From assembly GCA_003554615.1 (NCBI GenBank), contig PWGX01000027.1, positions 1 to 38,618 of the forward strand: a DNA stretch of 38,618 bases, read 5' to 3'. Both the position numbers and the translations under genes were made by a program. This document shows positions 35,198-38,618 of this stretch, piece by piece. This DNA comes from Syntrophomonadaceae bacterium. GTDB taxonomy: Bacteria > Bacillota > Dethiobacteria > DTU022. The notes under the pieces were generated by a model. The model had not been told where the DNA came from. It did not search any database and saw only the letters and a program-made list of their open reading frames with translations. Position 1 is the stretch's first letter. Each line of letters starts with the position of its first letter.

Positions 35198-35650
35198 TTA
35201 TTTCTTTTCTCCAGATTCTTCTTCTTTTAATTCTTCTTCAGGGACATTGATACCCTGGACATAGATGTTAATGGCTTCAACCGTTAAACCGGTTGACTTT
35301 TCAACATTGGTGCGAATCTCTTTTTTCAGCTTATCGGTTGAGTCAACTATAGATTTTCCATATTCAACGATCACACTTATATCAATAGTTACCCTGTCTT
35401 CATTAACATCCACTTTAATTCCCTTGGTCATATCACGGCGGCCCAGCCTTTCGGCAATACCGCCTACCATTCCACCGCTCAAACCGGTTATACCAGGAAT
35501 GTCACTGGATATAAGGCTGGTTATAACGGCAATCACATCTGAAGATATTCTAACGCTATCTCCTTCTTTTGATGGATCCGGCTTTAGTACAGCTTCACCA
35601 CTTCCACCTGTTTTGCTTTCAGTCTTGCCTTTTTTTTCCTCTTCAGTCAT
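35198..35650 (-). CDS. Asp23/Gls24 family envelope stress protein
   Basis: A 150-residue protein of the Asp23/Gls24 family. It has a charged low-complexity N-terminus, the core VRISSDVIAVITSLISSDI, SGGMVGGIAERLG and VTIDISVIVEYGKSI, and an acidic tail. Relatives are abundant, membrane-associated proteins tied to envelope or alkaline stress. The ATG at 35650 is chosen because AAAGGAGG lies seven bases before it. It has its own consensus promoter and strong terminator, so it is probably a single-gene unit of high expression. Confidence 0.9.
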   Translation of the reverse strand: MTEEEKKGKTESKTGGSGEAVLKPDPSKEGDSVRISSDVIAVITSLISSDIPGITGLSGGMVGGIAERLGRRDMTKGIKVDVNEDRVTIDISVIVEYGKSIVDSTDKLKKEIRTNVEKSTGLTVEAINIYVQGINVPEEELKEEESGEKK

Positions 35651-35793
35651 TATAATTCCTCCTTTCACGATTTATAAAACGGGTAGTTAATAACCGCCAT
35701 TGCTGCCGGTTATGCCAGGTAAAAACTTGTCAACATCTGAATTATACAGAAAACCCGGGACTTTAAGTAAATAACTGGCTTATTTACCTCTTA

Positions 35794-35867: not shown

Positions 35868-38348
35868 TTAACGGGCCACTATATTTACCAGCTTGTTGGG
35901 GACAGTGATCGCTTTGATGATCTCCTTGCCCTCTAGCAGTTCACCGATCCGGTCACTGCTGCGCGCCTTTTCAACAAGTTGATCTTCCGGGCAATCGGTC
36001 GGCACGGTAATCCTGCCGCGCACTTTGCCGTTGATCTGGATTACTACTTCAACCTGGTCCACCTCGAGCATTTGCGGATCATAAGCGGGCCAGTGCTGGC
36101 GGTGCACGCTTCCCTCACAGCCCAGCATTTCCCATGATTCTTCGGCAAGGTGAGGAGCAAAGGGGGCCAGCAGGATCACTGTTTTTTCCAAAGCTTCACG
36201 CAATATTTCACGGTTATAGCCTTCCTTGTCCATCGCCTGCCGGTAGGCGTAGATGGAGTTGACCAGTTCCATGATGGCACTGATGGCGGTGTTAAAGTTA
36301 AAGCGCTCCTCAATATCGACGCTCACCTTTTTGATCGCGGCATGCAGGCTGCGCTGCAGTTCGGCTTCATGTTCTCCCTCTTCAGCCCTGACCGGCGATG
36401 CATCAATCTCCGCGGAGCTGTCGGCAACCAGGCGCCACATCCGGCGCAGGAAGCGGTGACAGCCTTCAACCCCCTGATCGTTCCAGTCCAGGTCCTTTTC
36501 AGGCGGTGAAGCAAAAAGGATAAAAAGGCGCCCGGTATCTGCGCCGAACCGCTCTACAATTTCGTCTGGAGTAACCACGTTTCCCTTGGATTTGGACATT
36601 TTTGCTCCGTCCTTATAAACCATACCCTGGGCCAGAAGCCTGTTAAAAGGCTCTATGACTTTGACCATGCCGGCATCATAAAGGACCTTGGTGAAATAAC
36701 GGGCATAAAGGAGGTGAAGCACGGCATGTTCGATCCCCCCGATATATTGATCGACCGGCATCCAGTAATCAGCATCGTCCGGATCGAAGGGAGCATAATC
36801 GCAGTTCGGGCTGGTAAAACGCAGGAAATACCAGGATGAACAAATAAAAGTATCCATGGTGTCTGTTTCCCGGGTGGCTTCTCCCCCGCACTCGGGGCAT
36901 TTAGCCTCTACAAAACCGGGATAATGGGCCAGGCTGGGCACCCGGTTGCCTGACAGTTCCATGTCGAGCGGCAGTTCTACCGGCAGGTCTGATTCCGGGA
37001 CCGGGGCGGCGCCCCACTGATCGCAGTAAATGATCGGGATCGGCGTGCCCCAGTAGCGCTGGCGGGAAATTAGCCAGTCGCGGATCCGGTAGGTCACCCG
37101 GAAGTTCCCGAGGCCCTGTTCCTCCAGGTAGGCGGTTACTTTTTTAATCCCCTCCCGGCTGTCTGTCCCGCTGAAAGAACCGGAATTAACCATGTACCCT
37201 TCATCAACATAAGCTTCTTCCAAGGTTTCCAGATCAAGTTCCGCCCGCTTCCCGGGCTGGATGACTACCCTGATCGGTAAATCGTACTTCCTGGCAAAAT
37301 CAAAATCCCTGTGGTCATGGGCCGGAACACCCATTACCGCTCCCGTCCCGTAGGCCATCAGGACATAATTACCCACCAGGATTGGCACTTCTTCCCCGTT
37401 GACCGGGTTTACGGCATAGCGGCCGGTAAAAAGACCGATTTTCGGCACTTCCTCCGAGGTCCGGTCAATTTCGCTTTCCCGCCTGGTCTTTGCCACAAAA
37501 TCAAGTACTTCCTTTTCCCGGTCCGTCCCCTCTACAAGGGGCCTGACCAGGGGATGTTCGGGAGCCAGGACCATGTAGGTTACCCCAAACAGGGTGTCGG
37601 GACGGGTGGTAAAGGTGCGGATTTCTTCTTCAGGAAAATCCTTGACCCGGAAAACAATTTCAGCACCCTCACTGCGGCCGATCCAGTTCTGCTGCATCAG
37701 CTTTACCCGTTCCGGCCAGCCTGGAAGCTGTTCCAGGTCATTAAGCAGCCTTTCAGCGTAATTGGTAATGCGTAAAAACCACTGCTCCAGTTCCCTGGTT
37801 TCCACAACATTCGAGCAGCGCCAGCACAGGCCCTTTTCGACTTGTTCGTTGGCCAATACCGTGGCACAGGTTTCACACCAGTTAACATCTGATTTTTTCT
37901 TGTAAGCCAGGCCCCGTTTATACATCAACAGGAACAGCCACTGCGACCAGCGATAGTAATCCGGGGAAGAGGTATTCACTTCCCGGTGCCAGTCATAGCT
38001 GACTCCCAGCCTTTTTTGCTGTTGTTTCATATGCTCAATATTACGGGCGGTCCAATCCGCCGGATTGACGTTGTTTTCAATGGCAGCATTTTCGGCCGGC
38101 AGGCCAAAAGCATCCCAGCCCATGGGATGAATGACATTAAAATTTCGCATCCGCAGGTAGCGGGCCAGGACATCGCCGATGGAATATACCCGCATATGCC
38201 CCATATGCAGTTTCCCGGACGGGTAGGGGAACATCTCCAAAACATAATACTTTGTTTTCGAACTGTCCGCCCGGGAACGGTATGAATCCTGCTCTTCCCA
38301 TAATTTTTGCCATTTTTCCTCGATCTGGGTCGCATTGTAAGTGGTCAT
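35868..38348 (-). CDS. leuS: leucyl-tRNA synthetase
   Basis: An 826-residue class I synthetase charging tRNA-Leu. The ATP-binding HIGH-type motif is in YPSGKLHMGHMRVYS, the zinc-type region has CETC and CWRC cysteines, the editing domain holds TTRPDTLFGVTYMVLAPEHPL, and the second signature is KMSKSKGNVV. Length is normal. The ATG at 38348 is preferred over a TTG one codon earlier. A T-box leader precedes it, so expression should rise when tRNA-Leu is uncharged. No convincing terminator follows the stop. Confidence 0.96.
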   Translation of the reverse strand: MTTYNATQIEEKWQKLWEEQDSYRSRADSSKTKYYVLEMFPYPSGKLHMGHMRVYSIGDVLARYLRMRNFNVIHPMGWDAFGLPAENAAIENNVNPADWTARNIEHMKQQQKRLGVSYDWHREVNTSSPDYYRWSQWLFLLMYKRGLAYKKKSDVNWCETCATVLANEQVEKGLCWRCSNVVETRELEQWFLRITNYAERLLNDLEQLPGWPERVKLMQQNWIGRSEGAEIVFRVKDFPEEEIRTFTTRPDTLFGVTYMVLAPEHPLVRPLVEGTDREKEVLDFVAKTRRESEIDRTSEEVPKIGLFTGRYAVNPVNGEEVPILVGNYVLMAYGTGAVMGVPAHDHRDFDFARKYDLPIRVVIQPGKRAELDLETLEEAYVDEGYMVNSGSFSGTDSREGIKKVTAYLEEQGLGNFRVTYRIRDWLISRQRYWGTPIPIIYCDQWGAAPVPESDLPVELPLDMELSGNRVPSLAHYPGFVEAKCPECGGEATRETDTMDTFICSSWYFLRFTSPNCDYAPFDPDDADYWMPVDQYIGGIEHAVLHLLYARYFTKVLYDAGMVKVIEPFNRLLAQGMVYKDGAKMSKSKGNVVTPDEIVERFGADTGRLFILFASPPEKDLDWNDQGVEGCHRFLRRMWRLVADSSAEIDASPVRAEEGEHEAELQRSLHAAIKKVSVDIEERFNFNTAISAIMELVNSIYAYRQAMDKEGYNREILREALEKTVILLAPFAPHLAEESWEMLGCEGSVHRQHWPAYDPQMLEVDQVEVVIQINGKVRGRITVPTDCPEDQLVEKARSSDRIGELLEGKEIIKAITVPNKLVNIVAR

Positions 38349-38372
38349 CAATAATATACCCCCGTAGTGAAT

Positions 38373-38618
38373 AAAAAAATCCGTCCTTGTTAAGGGACGG
38401 AATTATACCCGCGGTACCACCCTTATTGGTGAAAATAATGGTGGAGCTGGCGGGAGTCGAACCCGCGACCTCTTCCATGCCAAGGAAGCGCGCTCCCACT
38501 GCGCCACAGCCCCCCGTTTATTACCCGCTCAAACCGTTAACGCCGGCCTTACGGCAGCGGCTAATCTCAGTTCACCGCCGCTTCTCCGGGACGAGTTCAG
38601 CAGTTCCGCCTGCCGGAT
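38373..38618 (-). promoter_or_regulatory. leuS T-box leader (5' part beyond the window), interrupted by a tRNA gene
   Basis: The T-box core AGGGTGGTACCGCGGG lies at 38423-38408, followed by a terminator (TCCGTCC, loop, GGACGGA, then seven T residues; 38403-38373). Upstream, GAACTC (38598-38593) has the form of a specifier loop with a CTC leucine codon followed by G, then come two stems (AGCGGC/GCCGCT, and a CCGT..ACGG stem) like the stem II/III part of T-boxes. The first strand of stem I is outside the window. Between these parts lies a whole tRNA-Ala gene. The T-box identity rests on the core, the terminator, the gene context and the specifier. Confidence 0.8.
38439..38513 (-). tRNA. tRNA-Ala (anticodon GGC)
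   Basis: A 75-base cloverleaf. The acceptor GGGGCTG pairs with CAGCTCC (one G-U pair), the D stem is GCGC/GCGC, the anticodon stem CTTCC/GGAAG with loop TTGGCAT (anticodon GGC), the variable loop AGGTC, and the T stem GCGGG/CCCGC with loop TTCGACT. The discriminator is A and CCA is encoded. All stems pair, so this appears functional. It lies within the leuS T-box leader, on the same strand. Confidence 0.95.

Follow-up and report, generated by a model that had tools for sequence, protein, structure and literature searches.

Two kinds of described bacterial transcript come closest to the locus analyzed here. In transcriptional T-box riboswitches, the decision is taken while RNA polymerase passes the leader. 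In operons that combine tRNA genes with mRNA genes, the tRNA is freed from a longer transcript shared with a protein gene. The discriminator of the T-box, that is, the part sensing the 3' end of the bound tRNA, carries a conserved 5'-RRRxG-StemIII-AA-3' motif; according to the accessible parts of a 2020 review, Stem III is required for tRNA binding and tolerates length variation, and insertions in it are treated as structural, with no role assigned (PMC7583486). The outlook of the same review, as far as accessible, speaks only of 'curious insertions' in T-boxes (PMC7583486).

Here, we have analyzed the leuS leader in a 38,618-nucleotide stretch of contig PWGX01000027.1 (hereafter, the window), which belongs to a Bacillota assembly that is 71% complete. 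Like other transcriptional T-boxes of the leuS type (RF00230), the leader has a stem I with the Leu specifier CUC, Stem II where present, the RRRxG-StemIII-AA motif, a core, a terminator and leuS downstream, whereas its Stem III loop contains an entire tRNA gene specific for another amino acid. With tRNA/mRNA operons it would share the release of a tRNA from a protein-gene transcript, as we infer here; in contrast to them, the tRNA is enclosed by a regulatory RNA fold and separates its sensor from its switch. It also differs from the Stem III insertions covered in the accessible parts of PMC7583486, in that a tRNA gene is inserted, for which a cellular function of its own is expected. Because all defining T-box features that were tested are present, we place it as a variant of the T-box riboswitch and not as a separate class. 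The accessible parts of TBDB (PMC7778990), Wels 2008 (PMC2494555) and the 2020 review (PMC7583486) contain no mention of a tRNA nested in a T-box. The view of the sequence-only reading that such an arrangement is not described thus agrees with the accessible T-box literature searched, and a passing mention in subscription papers is possible.

Anatomy of the leuS leader

The features of the locus are listed in Table 1. On the minus strand, the order is GAACTC, Stem II, a conserved CGTTA stretch, GAGCG, GGTAATAA, ACGG, tRNA-Ala(GGC), TTATTTTCACC, AA, GGGTGGTACCGCG, the terminator and leuS. Within the window alone, RF00230 gave a truncated match of 55.7 bits, as stem I is cut by the window end. 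On the whole contig (C46, 103,629 bases), the Rfam match extended over 38390-38680 and model positions 1-219 with 113.5 bits (cut-off 93), with the tRNA as an insert. Thus, stem I, whose absence beyond 38618 would have spoken against nesting, was present. The locus combines this full-length RF00230 match with a Leu specifier ahead of leuS, the RRRxG-StemIII-AA motif, and an antiterminator core with a competing terminator. The tRNA is likewise intact: ARAGORN and Rfam both support a cloverleaf with GGC anticodon, G3:U70, A73 and CCA. The proposal that a complete tRNA-Ala sits inside the leuS T-box leader was therefore borne out.

Table 1. Features of the tRNA-bearing leuS leader and of leuS (window positions unless stated otherwise)
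Feature	Position	Strand	Basis or remark
Promoter TTGACA-17-TATAAT, directly ahead of stem I	contig 38733-38705, beyond the window	-	Sequence and promoter scan
leuS T-box leader, part within the window	38390..38618	-	Rfam RF00230; runs on to contig position 38680
Specifier loop GAACTC; Leu codon CTC at 38595-38593	38593..38598	-	Sequence; ahead of the tRNA
RRRxG purine string GAGCG (38530-38526) and Stem III 5' arm GGTAATAA (38525-38518)	38518..38530	-	Sequence, pairing test
tRNA-Ala(GGC), CCA encoded, in Stem III loop	38439..38513	-	ARAGORN; Rfam tRNA 68.9 bits
Stem III 3' arm TTATTTTCACC (38438-38428), then AA	38426..38438	-	Sequence, pairing test
T-box core GGGTGGTACCGCG of the antiterminator; bulge UGGU complementary to ACCA	38410..38422	-	Pattern and Rfam alignment
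Intrinsic terminator CCGTCCCTTAACAAGGACGG with T run	38372..38400	-	Sequence and fold
leuS, leucyl-tRNA synthetase, ATG at 38348	35868..38351	-	ORF; Pfam leucyl-tRNA synthetase editing domain 239.8 bits

Six other T-boxes were found in the same genome, none of them with a tRNA. Misassembly or chance could be ruled out as the origin of the arrangement, as the same junctions occur in independent genomes and phyla; in the window's family, about 20 genomes share the stretch in alignments that extend over both flanks. The ORF that follows leuS (window 35198-35668, minus strand) was assigned by eye as a putative Asp23/Gls24-type envelope protein.

Stem III as the site of the tRNA

A leader hairpin with the tRNA in its loop (GGT/ACC, AATAA/TTATT) had been predicted from the sequence; it is present and corresponds to the Stem III position of the discriminator domain. 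The tRNA can be equated with the Stem III loop because GAGCG is the RRRxG string, GGTAATAA and TTATTTTCACC are the arms, and AA comes next. In plain leuS T-boxes of other Bacillota, a simple hairpin occupies the exact site of the tRNA, for example GAGTG-GGTAATTTATTACC-AA in L219.

Pairing was measured in 34 loci with less than 70% LeuS identity to each other (a larger locus set was also tested). Helices anchored right after RRRxG and right before AA had a mean length of 5.12 bp, against 2.17 bp when the 3' flanks were exchanged between loci; the highest mean in 2000 shuffles was 3.29 bp, so that none of the 2000 was as good as the real arms. Helices of at least 5 bp were observed in 20 of the 34 loci (5.3 expected, 12 at most in shuffles). 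Examples are GAGTG-GGTAGGGCG-t[tRNA]t-CGTTCTACC-AA in a Ktedonobacter MAG and GAGCG-GATAGGCG-c[tRNA]ctgac-CGCCTATC-AA in a Sphaerobacter MAG. This covariation of the Stem III arms around the tRNA is the strongest evidence for nesting. RRRxG-anchored pairing was absent in a minority of nested loci in these tests. In the family to which the window belongs, the lower part of Stem III is weak, with GGU/ACC followed by an internal loop, so that the pairing support for this family comes mainly from other lineages. Folding of whole leaders was uninformative. The cloverleaf was not seen in the minimum-energy fold, which speaks against the arrangement; when folding was restricted to the Stem III region, the acceptor stem formed in most loci, the window locus included.

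Occurrence in bacteria

To examine the distribution of this arrangement, GTDB genomes were scanned for the end of any tRNA with a T-box core within 61 nt, which gave at least 119 stretches. Among the matches listed and the earlier loci, Ala(GGC) accounted for 128 of the 133 ARAGORN tRNAs adjoining a T-box core. Among the matches listed, leuS lay downstream of most nested Ala(GGC) loci, directly or one gene later. We also considered whether any tRNA or any gene could be nested in this way; the few Arg, Tyr, Lys, Glu and Ala(CGC) cases among the matches listed were without leuS and were taken as chance.

The same arrangement thus recurs both in the window's family and across phyla. Carriers of a nested Ala(GGC) include Syntrophomonas, Thermosyntropha, Desulfofundulus, Desulfotruncus, Symbiobacterium, Ktedonobacter, Dictyobacter and Sphaerobacter; Syntrophomonas wolfei subsp. 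methylbutyratica, Desulfofundulus thermosubterraneus and Dictyobacter aurantiacus are carriers that can be cultured. Nesting was found across Bacillota, Chloroflexota and records labelled Armatimonadota, Atribacterota, Coprothermobacterota and Caldisericota. When genomes were drawn evenly, 63 of 299 from the window's phylum (47 of 215 genera) and 15 of 151 from the Sphaerobacter phylum had the pattern. For the window's class the figure was 37 of 98, most of the window's family among them.

A full-length Rfam T-box spanning the tRNA was detected at the curated cut-off in 7 of 20 diverse loci. With a relaxed threshold, all 11 loci searched, most of which had missed the cut-off, gave a full-length T-box (E-values 2e-5 to 2e-19). 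Of 142 loci, 113 had GAACTC where it is expected, and the antiterminator bulge was UGGU in 135 of 142. In a LeuS tree, nested, plain and absent states were interleaved on most branches, with Chloroflexota largely apart from Bacillota. This pattern, as read from the sampled sequences, would fit an old origin of nesting with many losses; because sampling favoured carriers, the number of gain and loss events is left unstated.

The genes that follow the leader vary. In seven Desulfotomaculum-type loci (L044, L051, L085, L106, L125, L136 and L153), an AMP-binding, acyl-CoA-synthetase-like gene lies between the tRNA-bearing T-box and leuS (Pfam on L051 only). In some Chloroflexota and a relative (L045, L099 and L105; Pfam on L105 only), a class IV, branched-chain-type aminotransferase comes first and leuS follows, so that the Leu T-box heads a small branched-chain operon. 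In addition, Caldilineales-like loci (L045, L097, L099 and L146) carry an additional tRNA, Ala(CGC), immediately before stem I of the leader.

Promoter position and retention of the tRNA gene

Promoter-like sites, defined by at most two mismatches to TTGACA/TATAAT, were searched for in 131 loci. In 106 of these loci such a site lay 150 nt or more before the tRNA, against 10 in shuffled sequence; the tRNA itself and the interval from the tRNA to the T-box core had no such site in any of the 131. A promoter in that last interval would have made the tRNA a mere neighbour of the T-box, as the sequence-only reading pointed out. Sites less than 150 nt ahead of the tRNA occurred in 16 loci; those with at most one mismatch were mostly 124-146 nt away, in apparently shorter leaders. 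In L149 (Atribacteria), 46 nt separate the end of the -10 box from the tRNA; stem I has apparently been deleted there, while the T-box core and the tRNA remain. Part of the tRNA-Ala(GGC) supply could also come from an undetected promoter.

Several features indicate that the tRNA has been retained as a gene. In all 128 nested loci, G3:U70 and ACCA were conserved. In a pattern search, 30 of 34 genomes, mostly nesting carriers, had just one tRNA-Ala(GGC) gene, and in several of these 34 the locus is on a multi-megabase contig. Among 16 genomes without the exact nesting pattern, 15 had a tRNA-Ala(GGC) match elsewhere. The surroundings of the RNase P cleavage site in the nested tRNA resemble those of other tRNAs; U at -1 is kept, which is no more than ordinary tRNA genes would show. 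A possible masking of the CCA end through leader bases -1/-2 was considered and set aside, since its frequency (18 of 34 nested tRNAs) was not clearly higher than in other tRNA genes (10 of 35).

In part of the window's order, the T-box has decayed around the tRNA. Stem I and core are decayed in G025, G028, G033 and G034, and the tRNA is still 100-400 nt upstream of leuS; in G025, G033 and G034 the surviving tRNA has its own promoter-like site and a terminator-like remnant. The decay series in this order comprises the loci L159, L160, L163 and L165, three of the four with an own promoter-like site at the tRNA.

Discussion

We consider it probable that this locus is a leucine T-box with a tRNA-Ala(GGC) gene in its Stem III loop, whose leader both gates leuS and doubles as the tRNA-Ala precursor. 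One strong promoter ahead of stem I would give one leader RNA. During transcription, uncharged tRNA-Leu(GAG), read by the CUC specifier, would decide between the terminator and readthrough into leuS. In both outcomes, terminated or read through, the tRNA-Ala(GGC) would be complete in the RNA, and RNase P and 3' trimming would then free it. The leader RNA, which is discarded in an ordinary T-box, would thus be a tRNA precursor, and the T-box terminator would serve as the regulated 3' end of the tRNA. Since the tRNA is in the RNA either way, the leader can be a constitutive tRNA precursor while uncharged tRNA-Leu gates leuS. Such dual use would explain why the promoter is near consensus and why the tRNA survives where the T-box decays; it also accounts for the site, as Stem III, variable in length among T-boxes, is a tolerated place for insertions. 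The anatomy of the leader, the covariation of Stem III, the promoter position, the single gene copy and the wide conservation belong to the observed side of this model; a single transcript, a decision that precedes processing, maturation of the tRNA and a response to leucine would complete it.

The sequence-only reading had posed a dilemma, namely that either processing is held back or the cut itself regulates leuS. This does not follow: because the T-box decision happens during transcription, processing can come after it with no conflict, and a terminated leader is simply a tRNA precursor. The second horn of the dilemma may nevertheless be put as an explanation of its own, in which cleavage by RNase P at the embedded tRNA parts the sensor (stem I) from the discriminator. 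A fast cut would then turn leuS off and a slow one on, or a cut after readthrough would remove the bound sensor and shape the stability of the leuS mRNA. An RNase P site does lie between sensor and switch in every locus, and in L047, L148 and L065 Stem III closes 0-3 nt from the tRNA end, where a formed Stem III could hinder cleavage. The retained U at -1 would suit such a role, but ordinary tRNA genes would be expected to have it too, the nested loci showed nothing specific to delayed processing, and the simpler dual-use model needs no such step; we therefore regard regulation by processing as unlikely. Somewhat less doubtful, although still improbable, is a deep-rooted class of bifunctional riboswitch in which the switch of one amino acid's synthetase holds a tRNA gene for another and excision of the tRNA by RNase P would be kinetically coupled to the leucine decision, linking alanine tRNA supply and leuS expression.

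The embedded tRNA might instead tune the switch in cis, by a delay of 75 nt before the antiterminator, as a folding block within Stem III, or by its own ACCA competing for UGGU. The conserved UGGU bulge is indeed complementary to the ACCA of both tRNA-Leu and the embedded tRNA-Ala, and the insertion is always between the sensor and the decision point. However, no sequence feature sets this apart from passive nesting, and ordinary T-boxes of the same kind keep the same core without a tRNA, which makes cis tuning very unlikely. The lowest probability falls to the notion of mere neighbours, with a tRNA transcribed on its own and a T-box that is a relic or works without its upstream part. Decay of stem I and core with the tRNA staying upstream of leuS, as in family f5, G025 and G028, speaks for this notion. 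Nevertheless, distant lineages have retained full-length T-box matches, the Leu specifier and Stem III arms that covary, and when promoter-like sites are limited to those with no more than one mismatch, L149, which seems to have lost stem I, is the only locus with one shortly upstream of the tRNA; this explanation is hence extremely improbable.

As far as the accessible literature shows, this is apparently the first tRNA gene nested inside a riboswitch, and the same isoacceptor, in the same helix and mostly with the same regulated gene, is conserved across several phyla. For annotation, a leuS T-box that is longer by about 75 bases can be taken to contain a tRNA gene, and for T-box research these loci offer a natural experiment on the role of Stem III. 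They also pose a testable question: the regulatory RNA would have to be intact until the decision, yet an apparently needed tRNA would have to be cut from its middle.
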